Source: Pedobacter cryophilus (GTDB taxonomy: Bacteria; Bacteroidota; Bacteroidia; Sphingobacteriales; Sphingobacteriaceae). Taken from it: a stretch of 64,000 bases of DNA. Below, piece by piece: positions 16,255 to 25,240 of the stretch (positions within the stretch are counted from its first letter, which is position 1; each line of letters starts with the position of its first letter). The notes under the pieces are model-generated. The model did not search any database, had not been told where the DNA came from, and was given only the letters and a program-made list of their open reading frames with translations. The position numbers and the translations under genes were made by a program. The stretch is from contig NZ_SWBP01000002.1 in NCBI RefSeq assembly GCF_005116455.1, positions 1-64,000 of the forward strand, written 5' to 3'.

Positions 16255-16686
16255 TTGCTCTCTAAAAAAACAAAATATGCCATTAGAGCCCTTATTGCCT
16301 TAGGTGAGCAATTTGGCGGCGATTCTATGAATATTTTAAGCATTTCGCAAAAAGAAAAAATTCCTAAAAAGTTTTTAGAACAAATTCTTTTAGAAATGCG
16401 TAACGCTGGCTTTCTTTTCAGTAAAAAAGGTGCTGGTGGCGGTTATTCTCTTCTAAAAAATCCTGATGATATTAATTTGGTGCAAGTGATGCGTTTAACC
16501 GGTGGACCTATTGCTCAATTGCCTTGTGTAAGCTTGAATTTTTATCAGAAGTGCGATGAATGTAAAGAAGAAGCAACTTGCGGCATTCGAGCTACTTTCA
16601 TGAATGTTAGAGATGCTACTCTTAAAATATTATCAGAAACCACTATAGGTGATCTTATCCGTAAAGAAAAAAGCTTAAGTAGCTAA
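16255..16686 (+). CDS. Rrf2-family transcriptional regulator
   Basis: 143-residue winged-helix regulator (LSKKTKYAIRALIALGEQF at the N-terminus; recognition region KIPKKFLEQILLEMRNAGFL and KKGAGGGY). A cysteine cluster PCVSLNFYQKCDECKEEATC near residues 90-112 resembles the metal-cluster-binding loop of IscR/NsrR, with more cysteines than the usual three. The start is TTG; the sequence from it matches the usual family N-terminus, and the first internal Met is after the first helix. It lies directly before the sulfate-assimilation operon. In Firmicutes an Rrf2 member, CymR, controls cysteine genes, so a similar role is plausible here but not shown. Confidence 0.9.
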   Translation: MLSKKTKYAIRALIALGEQFGGDSMNILSISQKEKIPKKFLEQILLEMRNAGFLFSKKGAGGGYSLLKNPDDINLVQVMRLTGGPIAQLPCVSLNFYQKCDECKEEATCGIRATFMNVRDATLKILSETTIGDLIRKEKSLSS

Positions 16687-17194: not shown

Positions 17195-17239
17195 AAAAAA
17201 TATTTTCACAAAAAGACTACTAAATACATAGACATTATA

Positions 17240-17247
17240 TATATTTG
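17240..17247 (+). promoter_or_regulatory. -7 promoter element of the sulfate-assimilation operon
   Basis: TATATTTG matches TAnnTTTG exactly. Transcription would start near 17253, about 30 nt before the Cys-rich leader frame and about 190 nt before the sulfite reductase gene. No firm -33 TTG was seen. Confidence 0.6.
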
Positions 17248-17281
17248 TTGCGTGATCAGAAATTCAACTATTCAAAATACC

Positions 17282-17323
17282 ATGTCTTACTGTTGCTGTA
17301 TAAAATTTAACAGCGTTTGTTAA
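17282..17323 (+). CDS. Cysteine-rich leader peptide
   Basis: A 13-codon frame encodes MSYCCCIKFNSVC. Three consecutive Cys codons (TGT TGC TGT, 17291-17299) and a fourth just before the stop make up 4 of 13 codons, far above expectation for a random frame. It lies between a consensus promoter and an intrinsic terminator, and overlaps a potential RNA hairpin (17307-17323). There is no Shine-Dalgarno site, as is normal in this phylum. By analogy with amino-acid leader peptides such as TrpL and HisL, its translation rate would report charged tRNA(Cys). The function is inferred; the frame itself is certain. Confidence 0.75.
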   Translation: MSYCCCIKFNSVC

Positions 17324-17402
17324 GCAGTAGAGGCACTATAAGATCTTTTTAGTTAGTGTGTTAGTTTAAGCCTCTTCTATTTATTGGGAGAGGTTTTTTT
17401 TT
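17307..17402 (+). promoter_or_regulatory. Putative cysteine-responsive transcription attenuator
   Basis: Mutually exclusive helices can be drawn. Region 1, TTAACA (17307-17312), pairs with TGTTAA (17318-17323) in a perfect 6-bp hairpin with loop GCGTT inside the leader frame. Region 2, AGAGGC (17329-17334), pairs exactly with GCCTCT (17370-17375), extendable by ACTA (17335-17338) with TAGT (17362-17365) across a TTAA bulge. This blocks the terminator, which pairs 17371-17378 with 17386-17393. A ribosome stalled at the triple Cys codons leaves region 2 free (read-through); one at the stop codon would cover it (termination). The pairings are read from sequence; the mechanism is inference. Confidence 0.7.
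17371..17402 (+). terminator. Intrinsic terminator within the leader of the cys operon
   Basis: CCTCTTCT (17371-17378) pairs with GGGAGAGG (17386-17393) around the loop ATTTATT, followed by nine T residues (17394-17402). It stands 38 bp before the sulfite reductase start codon, so it would stop transcription before the operon unless the alternative helix forms. Confidence 0.85.
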
Positions 17403-17440
17403 GATTTAGGTTAATATTAATACAAGGATTACAATATATT

Positions 17441-19537
17441 ATGCAAAGCTTTAGAACAGAATTAGAAAATCCATTAGTTGAAAAAGACATCATTGCTTTA
17501 GAGCAAAAGATTAGGGCTTTTAGAGAAGGGAAAATTGATGATGAAAGATTTAGAAGTCTGCGTTTAGCGAGAGGTGTTTATGGCCAGCGCCAACCTGGAG
17601 TGCAAATGGTGCGTATCAAATTGCCTTTTGGTAAAGTTACGTTTAAGCAATTTCTAAAAATAGCCGATATTTCTGATGAATATGCATCAAGTAATTTGCA
17701 TTTAACCACCCGTCAAGATATTCAAATCCATTATGTGAGTTTAGATCGTACGCCAGAGCTTTGGTCTAAATTAGAACAAGATGATATTACTTTAAGAGAA
17801 GCTTGTGGCAACACGGTAAGAAATGTAACAGCATCGCCAACTGCCGGAATAGATCCTTCAGAACCTTTTGATGTTTCTCCTTATGCTCATGCTTTTTTCG
17901 AATATTTTTTGAGAAACCCTATTTGTCAGGAAATGGGAAGGAAAATAAAATTTGCTTTCTCTTCTAGCGAGGCTGATACCGCTTTTTCTTTTATCCACGA
18001 TTTAGGCTTTATCCCAAAATTAAAACTAGAAAACGGGGAAGACGTAAGAGGTTTTAAAGTGGTTTTAGGAGGTGGCTTAGGCGCCCAACCTTCTTTAGCT
18101 CATATTGTACATGAGTTTTTACACGAAGATTTAATTATTCCTTATGCCGAAGCCGTTCTACGTGTTTTTGATAGACATGGCGAAAGAAATAACCGTAATA
18201 AAGCCCGCTTAAAATTCTTAGTCAACAAAATAGGTATTGACGAATTGGTGAAATTGGTTGAAGAAGAAAAAATAGCCAATAAAGTTAAAACCTTTAAAAT
18301 CAATAGAGATTCCATCATCCAACCACAAGCTGCTGCACCACAAAATTTTGCTGAAGTAGCAATCAAAGATCAATTAGCCTATCAATTATGGTTAGATACC
18401 AACGTTTTTGAGCAAAAGCAAAAAGGTTTTTACGGGGTGTATGTAAAAGTTCAAACCGGCGATATCAAAACAGATTTAGCCAGAAAGTTTATAGCCGCCA
18501 TTAGTGGTTTAGTGGCAGATGAAATTAGAATTACCATTAACCAAGGCTTGCTTTTAAAGTTTGCAACAAAAGAAGCTTTGCCTTCTTTGTTTCTAGCTTT
18601 AGAGGAATTAGGCTTATCAGCGCCAGGTTTTGATAGCGTTGCCGATGTCACTACTTGCCCAGGTACGGATACCTGTAATTTGGGAATTTCTAATTCTATG
18701 GAGCTTTCTAGAGTGTTAGAATCGGTGATTTATGATGAATATCCTTCCTTTATTGAAGACAAAGAAATCAAAATAAAAATTAGCGGTTGTATGAATTCAT
18801 GCGGTCAGCATGGCTTGGCTCAAATTGGTTTTCATGGAAGTTCTATGAAAGCAAATGGAAAAGTAATGCCTGCCGTTCAGGTTTTATTAGGTGGTGGAAT
18901 TGTGGGTGATGGAGTAGGCAGAGCTGCAGATAAAGTGGTGAAAGTTCCTTCTAAAAGAGCACCTCAGGTATTAAGAGCCGTTTTAAATGATTATCAGGCC
19001 AAAGCCGATACTTATCAAAGCTTTCATCAGTATTATGATGATTTAGGTAAAGATTATTTTTATCAATTATTGAAACCAATTGCAGATCAAACTACCTTAA
19101 CGGATGAAGATTTTGTGGATTGGGGACATCAAGAAACTTTCCAAACCGCAATTGGTGTGGGTGAGTGTGCCGGTGTGGTGATAGATTTAGTAGCAACTTT
19201 AATTTTTGAGGCTGAAGAAAAGTTTGAATGGGCAAAAGCATCATTCGAAAATAAGGCTTTCGCCGATGCTATTTACCAAGCATATAATGCAATGGTAAGT
19301 GGTGCAAAAGCTTTGTTATTAGATAAAGGAGTGAATCAAAGTACACAAACTGGTGTAATGAAAGCTTTTGACGAGCATTATGCCGCCGCTTTAGCAATAG
19401 AAAGTTTTACCGATTTGGTTTTACAAATCAATAAAAACGAACCTTCAGCAGTTTTTGCCGAAGCATATTTAGCTTCAGCAAGTGATTTCTTAACAAAAAT
19501 TAAAAATTTCAGGGTGCAACCTGAGTTAGCAATATAA
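17441..19537 (+). CDS. Siroheme/4Fe-4S sulfite (or nitrite) reductase with C-terminal HEPN-like extension
   Basis: Six-electron reductase that should turn sulfite into sulfide. Two ferredoxin-like half domains (about residues 45-115 and 325-390) and two catalytic domains carry the cluster/siroheme cysteines Cys406 and Cys412 in TCPGTDTCNLG, and Cys450 and Cys454 in SGCMNSCGQHG. No flavoprotein subunit (CysJ) is in the operon, so ferredoxin is the likely donor. At 698 residues it exceeds the usual 550-570. The last ~130 residues (from about 565) are helical and resemble a HEPN-type domain; this part is uncertain. First gene after the attenuator. Context with CysH, CysD and CysN argues for sulfite rather than nitrite. 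Confidence 0.92.
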   Translation: MQSFRTELENPLVEKDIIALEQKIRAFREGKIDDERFRSLRLARGVYGQRQPGVQMVRIKLPFGKVTFKQFLKIADISDEYASSNLHLTTRQDIQIHYVSLDRTPELWSKLEQDDITLREACGNTVRNVTASPTAGIDPSEPFDVSPYAHAFFEYFLRNPICQEMGRKIKFAFSSSEADTAFSFIHDLGFIPKLKLENGEDVRGFKVVLGGGLGAQPSLAHIVHEFLHEDLIIPYAEAVLRVFDRHGERNNRNKARLKFLVNKIGIDELVKLVEEEKIANKVKTFKINRDSIIQPQAAAPQNFAEVAIKDQLAYQLWLDTNVFEQKQKGFYGVYVKVQTGDIKTDLARKFIAAISGLVADEIRITINQGLLLKFATKEALPSLFLALEELGLSAPGFDSVADVTTCPGTDTCNLGISNSMELSRVLESVIYDEYPSFIEDKEIKIKISGCMNSCGQHGLAQIGFHGSSMKANGKVMPAVQVLLGGGIVGDGVGRAADKVVKVPSKRAPQVLRAVLNDYQAKADTYQSFHQYYDDLGKDYFYQLLKPIADQTTLTDEDFVDWGHQETFQTAIGVGECAGVVIDLVATLIFEAEEKFEWAKASFENKAFADAIYQAYNAMVSGAKALLLDKGVNQSTQTGVMKAFDEHYAAALAIESFTDLVLQINKNEPSAVFAEAYLASASDFLTKIKNFRVQPELAI

Positions 19538-19539
19538 CA

Positions 19540-20307
19540 ATGGTTAAAGAACCTAAAATAACATTAGTGGGCGCAGGCCCTGGCGATGTAGATTTAATGA
19601 GCATTAAAGGTGCGAAAGCTTTAGCAAAAGCCGATGTGGTATTGTATGATGCCTTAGTAAATGAAGAAATACTAAGCCTTGCACCAGAAACGGCGGTAAA
19701 GATTTTTGTAGGGAAGAGAGCCGGAAAGCACTCTATGAAACAAGAAGAAATTAATCAATTATTGGTAGATTGCGCCTTAAATTACGGTTATGTAGTTCGT
19801 TTAAAAGGAGGAGATTCTTTTGTTTTTGGACGTGGATACGAAGAAATTGATTTTGCAGCTTCTTATAATATAGAAACAGACGTAATTCCTGGAATTTCTA
19901 GTTCTATAGCCGTTCCTGCATTGTGCGGGATTCCTATTACTCATCGTGGCGTAAGCGAAAGTTTTTGGGTAATCACAGGAACCACAACCTCAGGAAAAAT
20001 ATCTGATGACATTTATGTTGCAGCAAAAACACAAGCAACTGTAGTGGTTTTAATGGGGGTAAATAAAATTGCCGAAATTGTTAAGATTTATCAAAAGGAG
20101 GGTTTTGGAAGATTACCAATCGCTATCATCCAAAATGGATCAATGCCTAATGAGCGATATGCCTTAGGCGTAATTAATACTATTGAAGAACAAATAGCAG
20201 AAAAGGGCATTGCTGCTCCGGCAGTAATTGTAATAGGGGCTGTGGTGGGTTTACATCCAAAATTTCAGCCTATTTTAGAGTCTTATGAGTTTGTTGACGC
20301 AGAATAA
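19540..20307 (+). CDS. cobA: Uroporphyrinogen-III C-methyltransferase
   Basis: SAM-dependent enzyme that methylates uroporphyrinogen III twice to precorrin-2, the first step towards siroheme. The 255-residue protein shows VGAGPGDVDLMSIKGAKALA, the P2 segment VLYDALVNEEIL, VRLKGGDSFVFGRGYEEIDF and VIPGISSSIAVPALCGIPIT. It starts 2 bp after the sulfite reductase gene, whose enzyme needs siroheme. It competes with HemE for uroporphyrinogen III. The next gene begins 23 bp before its stop codon, indicating translational coupling. Confidence 0.95.
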   Translation: MVKEPKITLVGAGPGDVDLMSIKGAKALAKADVVLYDALVNEEILSLAPETAVKIFVGKRAGKHSMKQEEINQLLVDCALNYGYVVRLKGGDSFVFGRGYEEIDFAASYNIETDVIPGISSSIAVPALCGIPITHRGVSESFWVITGTTTSGKISDDIYVAAKTQATVVVLMGVNKIAEIVKIYQKEGFGRLPIAIIQNGSMPNERYALGVINTIEEQIAEKGIAAPAVIVIGAVVGLHPKFQPILESYEFVDAE

Positions 20308-21805
20308 AAATATAGCAGAGGAAAAAGAAAGCAATGAGCTTTTTCCAATTTTTTTGAAACTACAAAATTTCCGTACCCTTTTGGTAGGAGCCGGTAATGT
20401 AGGTTTAGAAAAATTGGAGGCTATGCTGTTCAATAGTCCCAAAGCTAATGTAACCGTTTTAGGAGAGCGTGTTTTGCCACAACTTAAAGAACTTATAAAA
20501 AACTATCCAACTGTCGAACTTTTTGAACGAAAGTTTAAAGAAGAAGATTTAAAAGGAGTAGAATTAGTGGTTTTAGCTACTGATGATAGAGATTTGCACA
20601 GATATATTAGGGGGATTGCTAAAGAAAGAGGTTTACTGGTAAATGTTGCCGATACGCCCGAGCTTTGTGATTTTTATTTAGGATCAATTGTAAAAAAAGG
20701 AAATTTAAAAATTGCCATCTCAACCAACGGAAAATCGCCAACAGTAGCAAAACGCATTAAACAGGTTATTAATGATAGTTTGCCTGATGAAATTGATGAC
20801 ACTTTAGATCAAATGAGTAAGCTTAGAGATACCTTAAAAGGTGACTTTGCTTACAAAGTGAAGAAGATGAATGAAGCAACTGCCAGTTTAGTAGAAGAGC
20901 CAAAGCAATCAAAGCAAATCATCTCTTCTACGGCTTTAAGTTGGGTAATTTGGACTATTGTAGTTGCTTTTGCAACCATTACTTTTTTTGCCTTATGGAA
21001 TCAAGAACCTGCTTTTAAAGCCTATATAGAACAAGTAAATCCTCATTTTTACTATTTTTTAGCCGCAGGTTTTGTTTTTGCAATGATAGATGGAGCCATT
21101 GGGATGTCTTATGGAGTTACCTCTACAACTTTTTCCTTATCAATGGGAATTCCACCTGCATCAGCAAGTACGGCAGTTCATATTTCCGAAATTTTAAGTA
21201 ACGGAATTGCCGGTTGGATGCACTTTAGAATGGGTAATATCAATAAAAAATTATTCAAATTATTGATTATTCCAGGTGTTATTGGCGCAGTAAGTGGTGC
21301 TTATTTACTATCTTCTTTAGAGCATTACAGTCAATATACTAAACCTATTGTTTCTGTTTATACTTTGATTTTAGGTTTAGTGATTTTAAGAAAAGCATTC
21401 AACGTTAATAAAGTCATATCGGCAGATAAAAAGATTAAAAAAATTGGAGTTTTAGGTTTTACAGGTGGTTTTATAGATGCCGTTGGTGGTGGAGGCTGGG
21501 GTTCTATTGTTTTATCTTCTTTAATTGCCGGAGGTAGAAATGCTAGGTATTCTTTAGGAACAGTTAAACTGAGCAGATTTTTTATTGCTTTAATGAGTTC
21601 TTTAACCTTTGTAACCATGTTAAGCGGTTTACATTGGTATGCAGTAGCCGGTTTAGTAATTGGTAGTGCAATTGCATCGCCAATTGCGGCAAGGGTTTCT
21701 AACAAAATCTCTGCTAAAACCATTATGGTTGCCGTTGGAGTCATTGTAATTTTAGTAAGCTCAAGAAGTATTATCAATTTTATATTGCTTTTATTATCTA
21801 ATTAA
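20285..21805 (+). CDS. Precorrin-2 dehydrogenase/sirohydrochlorin ferrochelatase domain fused to a TauE/SafE transporter
   Basis: One 506-residue frame joins two activities. Residues about 18-190 match the Met8/CysG N-terminal module: NAD-binding FRTLLVGAGNVGLEKLEAML, VVLATDDRDLHRYI, LVNVADTPELCDFYLGSIV and AISTNGKSPTVAKRIK. This module oxidises precorrin-2 and inserts iron to give siroheme. From about 220 onward there are seven or eight membrane helices with TauE/SafE signatures (MIDGAIGMSYGVTSTTFSLS, GFIDAVGGGGWGSIVLSSLI). That family exports sulfite and related anions or imports sulfate. Both halves fit the pathway. No stop or frameshift separates them. The start at 20285 overlaps cobA; translation from the nearby TTG at 20291 is also possible. 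Confidence 0.9.
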   Translation: MSLLTQNKNIAEEKESNELFPIFLKLQNFRTLLVGAGNVGLEKLEAMLFNSPKANVTVLGERVLPQLKELIKNYPTVELFERKFKEEDLKGVELVVLATDDRDLHRYIRGIAKERGLLVNVADTPELCDFYLGSIVKKGNLKIAISTNGKSPTVAKRIKQVINDSLPDEIDDTLDQMSKLRDTLKGDFAYKVKKMNEATASLVEEPKQSKQIISSTALSWVIWTIVVAFATITFFALWNQEPAFKAYIEQVNPHFYYFLAAGFVFAMIDGAIGMSYGVTSTTFSLSMGIPPASASTAVHISEILSNGIAGWMHFRMGNINKKLFKLLIIPGVIGAVSGAYLLSSLEHYSQYTKPIVSVYTLILGLVILRKAFNVNKVISADKKIKKIGVLGFTGGFIDAVGGGGWGSIVLSSLIAGGRNARYSLGTVKLSRFFIALMSSLTFVTMLSGLHWYAVAGLVIGSAIASPIAARVSNKISAKTIMVAVGVIVILVSSRSIINFILLLLSN

Positions 21806-21836
21806 CTAAAGAGGATATTCTTATTTTTACCGCAAA

Positions 21837-22541
21837 ATGAATAGGGCAGAAGAAATACAAAACATCATCAAAGATTTAACGCCACAACAGGTTTTGGCGG
21901 TTTTGGCGAATCAACATCAAGGAGAAATTATTTTTTCTACCAGTTTTGGATGGGAAGATCAAGTGCTCACAGACATGATTTTTGCTCAGGATTTACCTAT
22001 CAAAGTATTCACCTTAGAAACCGGTAGATTATTCACCGAAACCTATTATACCTGGAATCGTACTTTAGAAAGATACCAAAAACCCATAGCAGCCTTTTAT
22101 CCTGATAAAGACAAACTAGAAAAAATGGTGACCGAAAAAGGGCCAAGTAGTTTTTATGAATCGGTAGAAAACAGAAAAGAATGCTGCGGAATTAGAAAGA
22201 TAGAGCCTTTAAACAGAGCTTTAAAGGGATATAAAATTTGGATTACCGGTATCAGAGCAGAGCAATCTGTAAACAGAGAAAACATGGACTGGGTTGAATG
22301 GGATGAAGCGCACCAATTGGTAAAAGTTCACCCTATTTTTCATTGGACTTTAGATGATGTGAAAGCTTACGTTAAAGAAAATAATGTGCCTTACAACCCA
22401 TTACACGATAAAGGTTTCCCAAGTATTGGTTGCCAGCCTTGCACCAGAGCCGTACAACCCGGCGAAGATTTTAGAGCTGGCCGCTGGTGGTGGGAAGATC
22501 AAAGTAAAAAAGAATGTGGATTACATGAAGTAACGAAATAG
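21837..22541 (+). CDS. cysH: Assimilatory APS reductase (adenylyl-sulfate reductase, thioredoxin type)
   Basis: Reduces adenylyl sulfate to sulfite and AMP. The 234-residue protein has the 4Fe-4S ligands Cys116-Cys117 (KECCGIRKIEPL) and Cys199/Cys202 (GCQPCTRAV), which mark the iron-sulfur class acting on APS. The catalytic Cys227 is in the C-terminal KKECGLH. PAPS reductases lack the cluster cysteines, so no APS kinase is required, in keeping with the absence of cysC here. It starts 31 bp after the fusion gene. The 195-bp spacer to cysD holds degenerate repeats (see that entry). Confidence 0.94.
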   Translation: MNRAEEIQNIIKDLTPQQVLAVLANQHQGEIIFSTSFGWEDQVLTDMIFAQDLPIKVFTLETGRLFTETYYTWNRTLERYQKPIAAFYPDKDKLEKMVTEKGPSSFYESVENRKECCGIRKIEPLNRALKGYKIWITGIRAEQSVNRENMDWVEWDEAHQLVKVHPIFHWTLDDVKAYVKENNVPYNPLHDKGFPSIGCQPCTRAVQPGEDFRAGRWWWEDQSKKECGLHEVTK

Positions 22542-22736
22542 GTCCGCAGTTTGAAGTCGGCGGTCCGCAGTTTGAAGCGGAGACTCATCAAGCGGAAAGT
22601 AAAAAGTTTGCAGTCCGCAGACGTTAGTCTGAAGACGAGATTTATTAAACGAATAAAAAATATTTATAAATGAGCTTAAGTTCTTGATACTCGATACTTA
22701 GTACTAGATACTCAATACTCAATACTCAATAAAAAA
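22542..22736. repeat. Degenerate short-word spacer before cysD
   Basis: The gap holds repeated words: GTCCGCAGTTTGAAG occurs twice (near 22543 and 22570), with a third GTCCGCAG near 22610. From about 22682 there is a run of GATACTCGATACTTAGTACT-like words and three CTCAATA words ending just before the cysD ATG. Similar words precede several other genes in the window. Confidence 0.6.
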
Positions 22737-23627
22737 ATGGATTATTTAGATCAGTTAGAGGCAGAAGCCATAGCGATTTTACGGGAGGTAGCAGGGCAGT
22801 TTGAAAAGCCAGCTTTATTATTCTCAGGCGGAAAAGATTCTATCACTTTGGTGCGTTTGGCAGAAAAAGCCTTTCGGCCGGGTAAGTTTCCTTTTCCATT
22901 GGTGCATGTAGATACTGGGCATAACTTTCCTGAAGTGATTGAATTTCGTGACAAATTGGTAGAGAAAATTGGTGAAAAACTGATTATTGGACATGTACAA
23001 GATGCCATAGACAGCGGAAAAGTGATAGAGCAAAAAGGTAAAAATGCGAGTAGAAATGCTTTGCAAACCGTTACCCTTTTAGAAACTATCGAGAAAAACC
23101 AATTCGACGCTTGTATTGGTGGCGCCAGAAGAGACGAGGAAAAAGCCAGAGCAAAAGAACGTATTTTCTCAGTTCGCGATGAATTTGGCCAGTGGGATCC
23201 AAAACGTCAGCGACCAGAACTTTGGAACACCTTTAACGGTAAAATCCACAAAGGAGAAAACGTAAGAGTTTTCCCTATCAGTAACTGGACAGAGTTAGAC
23301 GTTTGGAATTACATCAAAAGAGAAAACATAGAAATACCTTCTATTTATTATTCTCACGAAAGAGAAGTGATAGAACGTAACGGGGTTTTAATGGCCGCAC
23401 ATGAGTTCTTAAATATGGATGCAGATGATATTGTACAAACCAAAAGTGTGCGTTTCCGTACCGTTGGTGATATGACTTGTACCGCAGCCGTAGAATCAGT
23501 GAAAACAGAAATAGACGATATCATTTTAGAAATCAGTCAATCAAAAATTAGTGAACGAGGTGCCCGTATGGATGATAAAGTTTCTGAAGCAGCCATGGAA
23601 GACCGTAAGAAAGGAGGATATTTTTAG
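22737..23627 (+). CDS. cysD: Sulfate adenylyltransferase subunit 2
   Basis: Catalytic N-type ATP pyrophosphatase subunit of ATP sulfurylase, which forms APS from sulfate and ATP with help of the CysN GTPase. The 296-residue length fits. The PP-loop LLFSGGKDSITLVRLAEKAF, HVDTGHNFPEVIEFRD, GGARRDEEKARAKERIFS and RTVGDMTCTAAVES are family signatures. Its stop overlaps the cysN start by one base (TAGTG), so the two subunits are translationally coupled in equal amounts. Confidence 0.97.
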   Translation: MDYLDQLEAEAIAILREVAGQFEKPALLFSGGKDSITLVRLAEKAFRPGKFPFPLVHVDTGHNFPEVIEFRDKLVEKIGEKLIIGHVQDAIDSGKVIEQKGKNASRNALQTVTLLETIEKNQFDACIGGARRDEEKARAKERIFSVRDEFGQWDPKRQRPELWNTFNGKIHKGENVRVFPISNWTELDVWNYIKRENIEIPSIYYSHEREVIERNGVLMAAHEFLNMDADDIVQTKSVRFRTVGDMTCTAAVESVKTEIDDIILEISQSKISERGARMDDKVSEAAMEDRKKGGYF

Positions 23628-24874
23628 TGGATATATTAAAATTTTTAACAGCCGGAAGTGTTGATGACGGTAAAAGTACCTTAATTGGTCGTTTGTTATA
23701 TGATACAGGTTCTGTTTTGGCCGATCAGCTAGAAGCTATTCAGAAATCTAATCGTAAAAACGACGATGGAACAGTAGATTTAGCCATTTTAACCGATGGA
23801 TTAAAAGCCGAACGTGAACAAGGAATTACTATTGATGTAGCCTACAAATATTTCCAAACCGAAAAAAGAAAATTTATCATTGCAGATACTCCAGGGCATA
23901 TTCAATATACCCGTAACATGGTTACCGGAGCTTCCAATGCAGATTTAGCCATTATTTTAATTGATGCCCGTAAAGGGGTAATAGAGCAAACCATCCGTCA
24001 TTCTTATTTGGTTTCTTTATTGGCTTTAGAGCATGTGGTGGTTTGTGTGAATAAAATGGACATGGTAGATTACAGCGAAGAGGTTTTTGATAAAATCCAT
24101 GCTGATTACCATACTTTAGCCACCAAATTAAATATTAAGGAAGTTACTTTTATTCCCGTAAGCGCTTTAAGAGGCGATAATATTGTTTTTAATTCTGAAG
24201 CCATGCCTTGGTACAAAGGCAAAAACTTATTAGAACATTTAGAAACCGTTCCGGTGCATGAAATTGACAGCTTATTGCCTGCTCGTATGGCGGTGCAATG
24301 GGTGGTAAGGCCGCAAACAGACGCTTTACATGATTACCGTGGCTATGCCGGCAGAGTGTTGAGTGGCGCTTTTAAATTGGGCGATGTAGTAAAAGTTTAT
24401 CCATCAGGTACCAGCTCTAAGATTTCAAAATTAGAAACCTTTGATGGCGATTTACAAATTGCCGAAGAAGGAAAATCCATCACGCTGCATTTAGAGGGCG
24501 AAATTGATATTAGCCGTGGCGATATGATTGGCGAAATTGAAAGAGCACCTATAGTTGCCAGCCAAATAGAAGCTGATATTTGTTGGATGGATACCCGCGA
24601 ATTAGACACCTCCGCAACTTATTTTATTCAACACCAAAGTAAAGTAACCCGTTGCAAAATTAAAGAGGTATTGTACAAAGTAAACATCAATACTTTAGAA
24701 AAAGTAAATGCAGATACTTTTGGTTTAAATGATATTGGCCGGGTAGAAATTAAAACCGCCGATGAACTCGCATTTGATCCTTACGAAATCAATAAAAGAA
24801 ACGGGGGCGCCATTATTATAGATAGTAGAACCAATGTTACGGTAGGCGCTTTAATGTTAAGAGCCGCTTTGTAA
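23627..24874 (+). CDS. cysN: Sulfate adenylyltransferase subunit 1 (GTPase)
   Basis: GTP-hydrolysing partner of CysD, homologous to EF-Tu. GTPase motifs in the 415-residue protein: G1 GSVDDGKSTLIGRLLYD, G3 DTPGHIQYTRNM, G4 NKMD. EF-Tu-like beta domains follow (PARMAVQWVVRPQTD and onward). The C-terminus ends without a fused APS kinase domain, so this is CysN alone, not NodQ/CysNC. The start is GTG in the TAGTG overlap with cysD. Last gene of the operon; a strong terminator follows 15 bp later. Confidence 0.97.
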   Translation: MDILKFLTAGSVDDGKSTLIGRLLYDTGSVLADQLEAIQKSNRKNDDGTVDLAILTDGLKAEREQGITIDVAYKYFQTEKRKFIIADTPGHIQYTRNMVTGASNADLAIILIDARKGVIEQTIRHSYLVSLLALEHVVVCVNKMDMVDYSEEVFDKIHADYHTLATKLNIKEVTFIPVSALRGDNIVFNSEAMPWYKGKNLLEHLETVPVHEIDSLLPARMAVQWVVRPQTDALHDYRGYAGRVLSGAFKLGDVVKVYPSGTSSKISKLETFDGDLQIAEEGKSITLHLEGEIDISRGDMIGEIERAPIVASQIEADICWMDTRELDTSATYFIQHQSKVTRCKIKEVLYKVNINTLEKVNADTFGLNDIGRVEIKTADELAFDPYEINKRNGGAIIIDSRTNVTVGALMLRAAL

Positions 24875-24930: not shown

Positions 24931-25240
24931 TGGGCGTTTTAACACGCTGTCCGCTAAATCTTTTTGGCTCCAAAAAGCCAAAAAGGATACCGCTTCCATC
25001 GTTAACGCACTATTTCCCTTTATTTAAGATTTGCTTTTTCCTCTCCAATAGCGAATTTATACTTCTCCAAAAAAATTAAACTTTGAGCCTTGGTAACACT
25101 ATTGCTTGGGTTTTAAATGCCATCTTTTTGTAAAAAGCAAAAGCCTACCTAACCTCTTTTACAACGAAATTTAAAATACCAGAATATTTGTATTCTCAAT
25201 TTCTATTAAATAATTTACTTTTAGGGAAAATCCTAAAATA
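24931..25240. other. Intergenic region with a palindromic element
   Basis: Bases about 24937-25010 look like a dispersed non-coding element. A central imperfect palindrome, CTTTTTGGCTCCAAAAAGCC, is flanked by GCGTTTTAACACGC on the left and ATCGTTAACGCA on the right. The remaining sequence to 25240 is A/T-rich with no gene seen. AATATTTG near 25188 is one base from the -7 consensus and may serve the gene at 25241. Confidence 0.45.

Follow-up and report, generated by a model that had tools for sequence, protein, structure and literature searches.

The question raised by this locus is whether the region in front of a sulfite reductase gene of Pedobacter cryophilus, in which a short run of cysteine codons is followed by a terminator, controls the genes behind it by attenuation. 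The window analysed is a stretch of 64,000 nucleotides (contig NZ_SWBP01000002.1, positions 1 to 64,000). A preliminary description of this DNA had interpreted the region as a cysteine attenuator and had proposed that the regions upstream of sulfite reductase genes in related genomes be aligned. The alignment was carried out and gave conserved Cys codons, a terminator and a co-varying antiterminator near the leader stop codon, all of which support that interpretation. From these sequence comparisons, we consider it likely that the operon that takes sulfate to sulfide is governed here by transcription attenuation, with the ribosome as mediator and charged Cys-tRNA, and possibly Met, as the signal sensed.

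The genes concerned were identified from gene calls and profile matches, and are as follows.

16255..16686, plus strand: Rrf2-family regulator gene, a possible second layer of control (profile matches)
17441..19537, plus strand: sulfite reductase hemoprotein gene, first of the operon, with NIR_SIR domains and a C-terminal HEPN match (gene calls, profile matches)
19540-20307, plus strand: cobA/cysG-C, presumed operon member
20285-21805, plus strand: cysG-N fused to TauE, presumed operon member
21837-22541, plus strand: cysH, presumed operon member
22737-23627, plus strand: cysD, presumed operon member
23627-24874, plus strand: cysN, presumed operon member

The presumed remainder of the operon after sulfite reductase spans 19540..24874 on the plus strand. 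The HEPN match covers residues 586-649 at the sulfite reductase C-terminus and scored 29 bits, over the Pfam cut-off of 22. The product of 20285-21805 fuses a siroheme synthase N-terminal domain to a TauE/SafE sulfite-exporter membrane domain. A Flavo-1 RNA (Rfam RF01705, 56.9 bits) lies on the minus strand at 24936-25015, just downstream of cysN. Upstream of the leader are an O-succinylhomoserine sulfhydrylase-like gene (below curated cut-offs, a Cys/Met-metabolism enzyme in Pfam), an OsmC gene and the Rrf2-family regulator, which scored 75 bits to CymR against a cut-off of 195.

Between the regulator and the sulfite reductase gene, the control region contains the following elements.

17216..17247, plus strand: promoter ACTACTAAATACATAGACATTATATATATTTG, including the -7 box TATATTTG at 17240-17247; conserved by eye in relatives
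17252..17323, plus strand: leader peptide frame of 23 codons, V/M-IRNSTIQNTMSYCCCIKFNSVC, with GTG at the predicted +1; 63 of 119 loci have an ATG, GTG or TTG exactly 4 nt past the box
17282..17284, plus strand: in-frame ATG, probably an internal Met codon, at -3 from the Cys run; in-frame Met is enriched around paired Cys codons in relatives
17291..17299, plus strand: three Cys codons, TGT TGC TGT, the presumed stall site; from the sequence and Cys enrichment in relatives
17307..17323, plus strand: 6-bp inverted repeat TTAACA/TGTTAA across the leader end; co-evolution test negative
17321..17323, plus strand: leader stop codon TAA, read from the sequence
17327..17336, plus strand: putative antiterminator 5' strand, core AGAGGC at 17329-17334, reachable by a ribosome at the stop codon; from the sequence, matched-versus-swapped pairing, a position scan and simulation
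17368..17402, plus strand: intrinsic terminator, a stem at 17368-17396 and a T run, with the 5' arm GCCTCT (17370-17375) common to the antiterminator; from a terminator scan and its presence in 16 of 17 same-genus loci

Every element named in the preliminary description was found again in the sequence where it had been placed: the -7 box can be read directly, AGAGGC and GCCTCT are exact complements, and the terminator is a 12-pair stem followed by T's whose 5' arm is shared with the antiterminator. A terminator scan of both strands of a 1.1-kb region returned 2 terminator-like sites versus a shuffle mean of 0.4, and the leader RNA folded better than 198 of 200 shuffled sequences (z -2.56). The promoter consensus, typed in and searched genome-wide at 3 mismatches or fewer, gave a single match, and no second copy was found with it in the Pedobacter cryophilus genome. 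Likeness among relatives, judged by eye, appears to reach far beyond the -7 box within 17216-17247; this stretch may also hold an operator for some regulator, and that regulator may be the neighbouring Rrf2/CymR-like one. The pattern TGYTGYTGY was dropped as stand-alone evidence, with 568 sites in the genome (286 + 282, versus 83 + 71 for the pattern written backwards). Being so common, a triple Cys run proves nothing by itself; its conservation in relatives does.

Relatives were collected by sulfite reductase protein searches, which were positive in 17 of 18 genomes of the genus, 187 of 201 of the family and, at E <= 1e-60, 32 of 198 of the phylum. From a search of named genomes (Pedobacter, Mucilaginibacter, Sphingobacterium and others) the best 80 of 564 were kept. 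Upstream regions from the genus and family search loci, from 80 more places picked in the family and from the 80 named loci came to 192; removal of 24 duplicates, judged by the last 150 nt, left 168 distinct regions, mostly from Sphingobacteriaceae (L018, a fragment of a split gene, had been dropped before this count). Going by identical contigs, clade g1 holds a Pedobacter puniceum genome, g12 is Pedobacter, g13 is Mucilaginibacter, which belongs to Sphingobacteriaceae in the Bacteroidota, and g15 is Sphingobacterium.

A locus was called a far-promoter locus when a TAnnTTTG box, the motif described in the accessible text of PMC9723704, lay 124-201 nt upstream of the sulfite reductase gene. 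Such a box was present in 119 of the 168 regions, and an intrinsic terminator preceded the gene in 104 of the 119; among the other 49 loci, 7 had a terminator (8 by a laxer position rule). The promoter rule missed four loci with a Cys leader and a terminator (L041, L054, L159 and L171), and at least four of the terminator-bearing loci outside the far-promoter group are leaders whose promoter went unrecognised. Sphingobacterium-type loci (g15) provide a natural contrast, by loss or absence: none of 21 had a terminator, and 17 of 21 had only a near promoter box. One of the 21 was flagged with a Cys frame lacking a terminator and was taken as chance.

Leaders were defined blind to cysteine, as the frame opened by the first ATG 2-14 nt after the -7 box. 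This strict rule gave a leader in 91 of the 119 loci, 87 of them with 8-40 codons, and these 87 contained 218 Cys among 1843 codons. Adjacent Cys codons (CC) occurred in 65 of the 87, compared with a mean of 6.0 and a maximum of 12 in 200 rounds of shuffling. Out of frame, Cys made up 142 of 1930 codons in frame +1 and 25 of 1930 in frame +2; the high count in frame +1 probably arises because an ATG followed by T or C makes TGY there. A looser rule, to which the shuffle control did not extend, accepted any start codon within 60 nt and required two Cys separated by no more than 2 residues; it found a Cys leader in 82 of the 119 far-promoter loci, followed by a terminator in 74 of the 82. A terminator without a recognised Cys leader was present in 30 of the 119.

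The position of the start codon was sharply defined. In 63 of the 119 loci it stood exactly 4 nt after the box (ATG 57, GTG 5, TTG 1), and an ATG at offsets 1, 2, 3, 5, 6 and 7 occurred in 1, 1, 0, 0, 0 and 3 loci, respectively. In 34 other loci the first ATG lay 2 or 7-14 nt after the box, 33 of them at 7-14 and 10 of these at offset 10. The accessible text of PMC9723704 places the sigma-A box at -12 to -5, which makes offset 4 the predicted first base of the mRNA; the same source gives 5.5% for leaderless mRNAs, and PMC7366714, in the part available, has about 3.7% of 5' UTRs shorter than 10 nt. Of these 63 loci, 50 had a Cys pair in the frame so opened, versus 2 and 1 in the other two frames. 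Of the five GTG starts, four lead into a Cys pair and the other into a frame whose Cys codons are single. At the window's locus, the GTG at 17252-17254 opens the same reading frame as the Cys run (VIRNSTIQNTMSYCCCIKFNSVC). Since it is in frame and stands at the very position of ATG in 57 of 119 loci, a length of 23 codons, not 13, is probable for the leader. The 13-codon frame of the preliminary description does exist at 17282-17323 (ATG TCT TAC TGT TGC TGT ATA AAA TTT AAC AGC GTT TGT TAA, MSYCCCIKFNSVC); translation, however, probably begins at GTG 17252, the predicted 5' end of the transcript, and ATG 17282 is probably an internal Met codon.

Similar leaders were found outside the family. 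In family f5, of the same class, leaders with three or more Cys in a row occurred in 22 of 26 loci (L249, at a contig end, excluded), where shuffling predicts 0.05 loci; 8 of the 22 leader-bearing loci have two leaders in tandem, and a terminator follows 28 of 30 leaders. In f25, of another class, Cys-rich leaders were present in 8 of 8 loci from 7 genomes, with hairpins followed by T's as judged by eye. At the f5 locus L293, a gene whose best matches are cysteine synthase models (scores under the curated cut-offs) is preceded by polycysteine leaders in tandem, one with CCCCC and one with CCCCCCC, and both leaders have a terminator. In relatives, a Cys leader within 300 nt of cysK/cysM-type genes was found in 0 of 30 loci, one of which had an uncertain start. 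In f2, f4, f8 and f10, where other open frames precede the sulfite reductase gene, 13 upstream regions, each about 10 kb long, showed no convincing leader. A CC frame at L259 was rejected for overlapping a larger open frame. A poly-TGY pattern scan of 60 f5 genomes was discarded for too many out-of-frame matches; among 30 poly-TGY loci of f5, a leader with a terminator was found only in L268 and L293, and the CCCC frames of L269 and L270 lack the terminator of this arrangement.

Methionine codons were also concentrated in the leader frame. The 87 strict-rule leaders contained 159 non-initial in-frame ATG codons versus 17 and 6 in the other frames, crowded at the Cys run (24 of 65 leaders with Met at -2, 16 of 65 at +2). 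The 28 leaders of f5 had 46 in-frame Met versus 5 and 9 in the other frames, and the 8 leaders of f25 had 17 Met and 54 Cys among 279 codons. Sulfide feeds cysteine and, through a sulfhydrylase of the type encoded by the neighbouring gene, homocysteine, which makes dual sensing plausible. From the in-frame clustering of Met around the Cys run, the leader may read both sulfur amino acids; alternatively, the clustering could reflect the nascent chain or the codon context. Reading of Met as well would let the leader sense the total supply of sulfur amino acids.

Co-evolution was examined by pairing the strand at the stop codon with the terminator arm and loop of its own genome or with those of other genomes. 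The antiterminator duplex was stronger in own than in swapped pairs (-10.5 versus -8.4 kcal/mol, 71 rows, 0 of 5000 permutations). Within g13 (31 rows) the signal was clear (0 of 20000), within g12 (25 rows) it was weak (p = 0.03) and in g19 (9 rows) it was absent (p = 0.91). Own pairs in f5 were again stronger than swapped ones (-9.0 versus -7.0, 28 rows, 0 of 20000). When the whole leader was scanned in steps of 6 nt, the signal peaked at the leader stop codon for the 75 Sphingobacteriaceae rows together (z -5.6) and for g13 taken separately (z -4.9). The f5 peak lay 12 nt upstream of the stop codon (z -6.0). Peaks so placed are what one would expect of a strand hidden by a ribosome at the stop codon. 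In g12 the stop codon did not stand out in the scan (z -2.2 at +6, -2.9 at -48). The best-complement window fell within -9 to +14 of the stop codon in 47 of the 75 Sphingobacteriaceae rows, with 22.0 expected, and in only 11 of 28 rows of f5, with 7.0 expected. An alignment of 19 g13 rows (20 before L054, whose terminator differs, was left out) has one column, at the edge of the loop, that paired with the antiterminator as GC 12, AU 6 and GU 1, and with the terminator as CG 11, UA 7 and unpaired 1; these figures count sequences and not independent events.

A second hairpin had been described inside the leader end. Its perfect 6-bp inverted repeat (TTAACA 17307-17312, TGTTAA 17318-17323) is present in the sequence, but no conserved counterpart was detected in relatives: matched-versus-swapped pairing detected no co-evolution of a 1:2 pause hairpin (75 rows, p = 0.10; 28 f5 rows, p = 0.18).

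For the window itself, growing RNA was folded with an assumed ribosome footprint masked, 15 nt on the 5' side of the A site and 13 nt on its 3' side. A ribosome placed at a codon of the Cys run allowed antiterminator formation until about 17390; one placed at the stop codon, or on the last Cys codon, prevented it. Ribosome-free RNA also formed the antiterminator before 17390, less so at 17390, and no protection by default is therefore seen. Once 17394 had been made, the terminator won in 6 of 6 simulated states, so that switching would have to be kinetic.

With these parts the attenuator would work as follows. RNA polymerase would start at about 17252 and, as the promoter position suggests, the first ribosome would bind the 5'-terminal start codon of the 23-codon leader. 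When cysteine is sufficient, translation would bring the ribosome to the stop codon at 17321, where it would cover the strand around 17327-17336, the terminator (17368-17402) would form and transcription would stop. When Cys-tRNA, the presumed signal, is short, the ribosome would stall at 17291-17299, about 30-40 nt upstream of the antiterminator strand, leaving that strand free to pair with the terminator 5' arm at 17370-17375, and the operon would be transcribed by read-through.

The genus of the window gave a less uniform picture. The Cys codons whose conservation had been predicted are kept widely in relatives (65 of 87 leaders with CC) but are often missing here: only 4 of 17 same-genus loci, the window's among them, have a Cys leader (3 with CC), and 16 of 17 have a terminator. 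Either the signal has changed in this genus or Cys sensing is decaying. In L009 and L010, of the same genus, the leader frame is interrupted after eight T's, where their relative L011 has seven; this is either decay or slippage. The relatives could thus have a true Cys attenuator while the window's copy is decaying or responds chiefly to Met, and the Rrf2 regulator exerts the control. The few Cys leaders in the genus favour this explanation, as do the rank of the window's own pair among swaps, only 0.44, and the success of the finished terminator in every simulated state. Against it, the window's locus still has its terminator, three Cys codons in tandem, a stable antiterminator duplex (-12.8 kcal/mol) and a start codon at the predicted +1, and we regard this explanation as unlikely.

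That the leader is instead a functional Cys-rich small protein binding a metal, a thiol or sulfide, with an incidental terminator, is suggested by the extreme Cys runs of f5, which reach nine in a row; Cys-rich micropeptides can bind metals. However, the peptides share little by eye across genera beyond Cys and Met, the terminator sits between the promoter and the first gene, and the RNA near the stop codon co-evolves with that terminator, which together make a small protein very improbable.

Equally hard to credit is a terminator governed by an RNA-binding protein or by a ribosome-independent RNA switch, such as a riboswitch or a T-box-like element. Its best argument is that same-genus loci without Cys codons keep a terminator. 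Neither the leader nor 9 related loci, however, had an Rfam match at the gathering score, and the Cys pair lies in frame in 50 of the 63 loci with a +1 start versus 2 and 1 out of frame. The best weak match, L10_leader, scored 21 bits against a cut-off of 44, and an Rfam assignment was dropped. Translation attenuation as reported for mycobacterial cysteine genes (Canestrari 2020), in which stalling exposes the start of the main gene, shares with this locus polycysteine ORFs at predicted mRNA 5' ends before sulfur genes, but has the least to recommend it of all: of 82 Cys leaders, 74 precede an intrinsic terminator, and the terminator is the pairing partner of the co-evolving strand.

Returning to the Cys attenuator, a broader and more tentative proposal, which we hold about as readily as we doubt it and would not yet favour, is that the leaders form a class of three-strand attenuators in at least three families, translated from the mRNA 5' end, working without a pause hairpin and reading Cys and Met. 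Met codons would surround the Cys run so that a shortage of either amino acid stalls the ribosome. One family would have tandem devices, and one genome would also have the device before a cysteine-synthase-like gene.

To our knowledge, Bacteroidota lack Shine-Dalgarno sequences, and we know of hardly any tests of ribosome-polymerase coupling in them. An attenuator of this kind would indicate that, in a major phylum, termination of transcription depends on where the ribosome stands, and could serve directly as a reporter for coupling. By starting at the mRNA 5' end, as predicted, the leaders would offer a simple way of synchronising ribosome and polymerase. The proposal also gives a specific account of the control of sulfate assimilation in Pedobacter, Mucilaginibacter and their relatives.

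The trp/his/leu-type attenuators of Proteobacteria combine regulatory codons, a terminator and an exclusive antiterminator, with the decision made by ribosome position. The locus resembles them in its short frame with regulatory (here Cys) codons, in the intrinsic terminator between promoter and first gene, in the exclusive antiterminator (weak in g12 and failing in g19) and in an antiterminator strand at the stop codon, predicted to be free on a Cys stall (in the pooled family, g13 and f5, not in g12), through which ribosome position would decide. It differs in the use of Cys (and Met) codons, in a start codon predicted at the mRNA 5' end and in having no detected co-evolving 1:2 pause hairpin. 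Leader peptides with Cys tracts are reportedly treated in work by Lyubetsky from 2014 on sulfur metabolism, which may be prior art.

Among the literature matches listed, none described a cysteine attenuator in Bacteroidota in openly available text. Clues to leader-peptide attenuation in Flavobacterium psychrophilum (PMC9723704) concern the same phylum and amino-acid biosynthesis operons as well; the elements named in its main text are those of pheA and hisG, with no cysteine case. In the genome studied here, a His-rich leader MKIILKTTHHHLHHHHCGVAL precedes hisG (contig C11, 385640-386182, L347), and frames with at least three His precede 22 of 24 hisG loci examined. A terminator after such hisG leaders was visible by eye in some loci of other families, not in this genus. 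Amino-acid leader peptides as such are therefore not new to the phylum, going by these hisG leaders and the available text of PMC9723704.

The polycysteine leaderless short ORFs of mycobacterial cys operons (Canestrari 2020) and the cys leaders of Actinobacteria resemble the present leaders, as far as the available text of the sources goes, in being short ORFs with a Cys run near the stop codon in front of sulfur-assimilation genes; translation from the mRNA 5' end is predicted here also. The Actinobacteria leaders are without obvious terminators in the accessible text of PMC1262725; unlike them, the present leaders have a conserved intrinsic terminator and an antiterminator and occur in a different phylum, a distinction drawn from published descriptions. 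The uORFC-8-2 motif upstream of cysS in Rhodobacterales (PMC8632094, as far as its text is available) is likewise a uORF proposed to sense Cys-tRNA; its tandem Cys codons usually occupy positions 14-15, and an intrinsic terminator comes after it. That motif controls a tRNA synthetase in Alphaproteobacteria, whereas the attenuator proposed here would control a sulfate-assimilation operon from a position before sulfite reductase.
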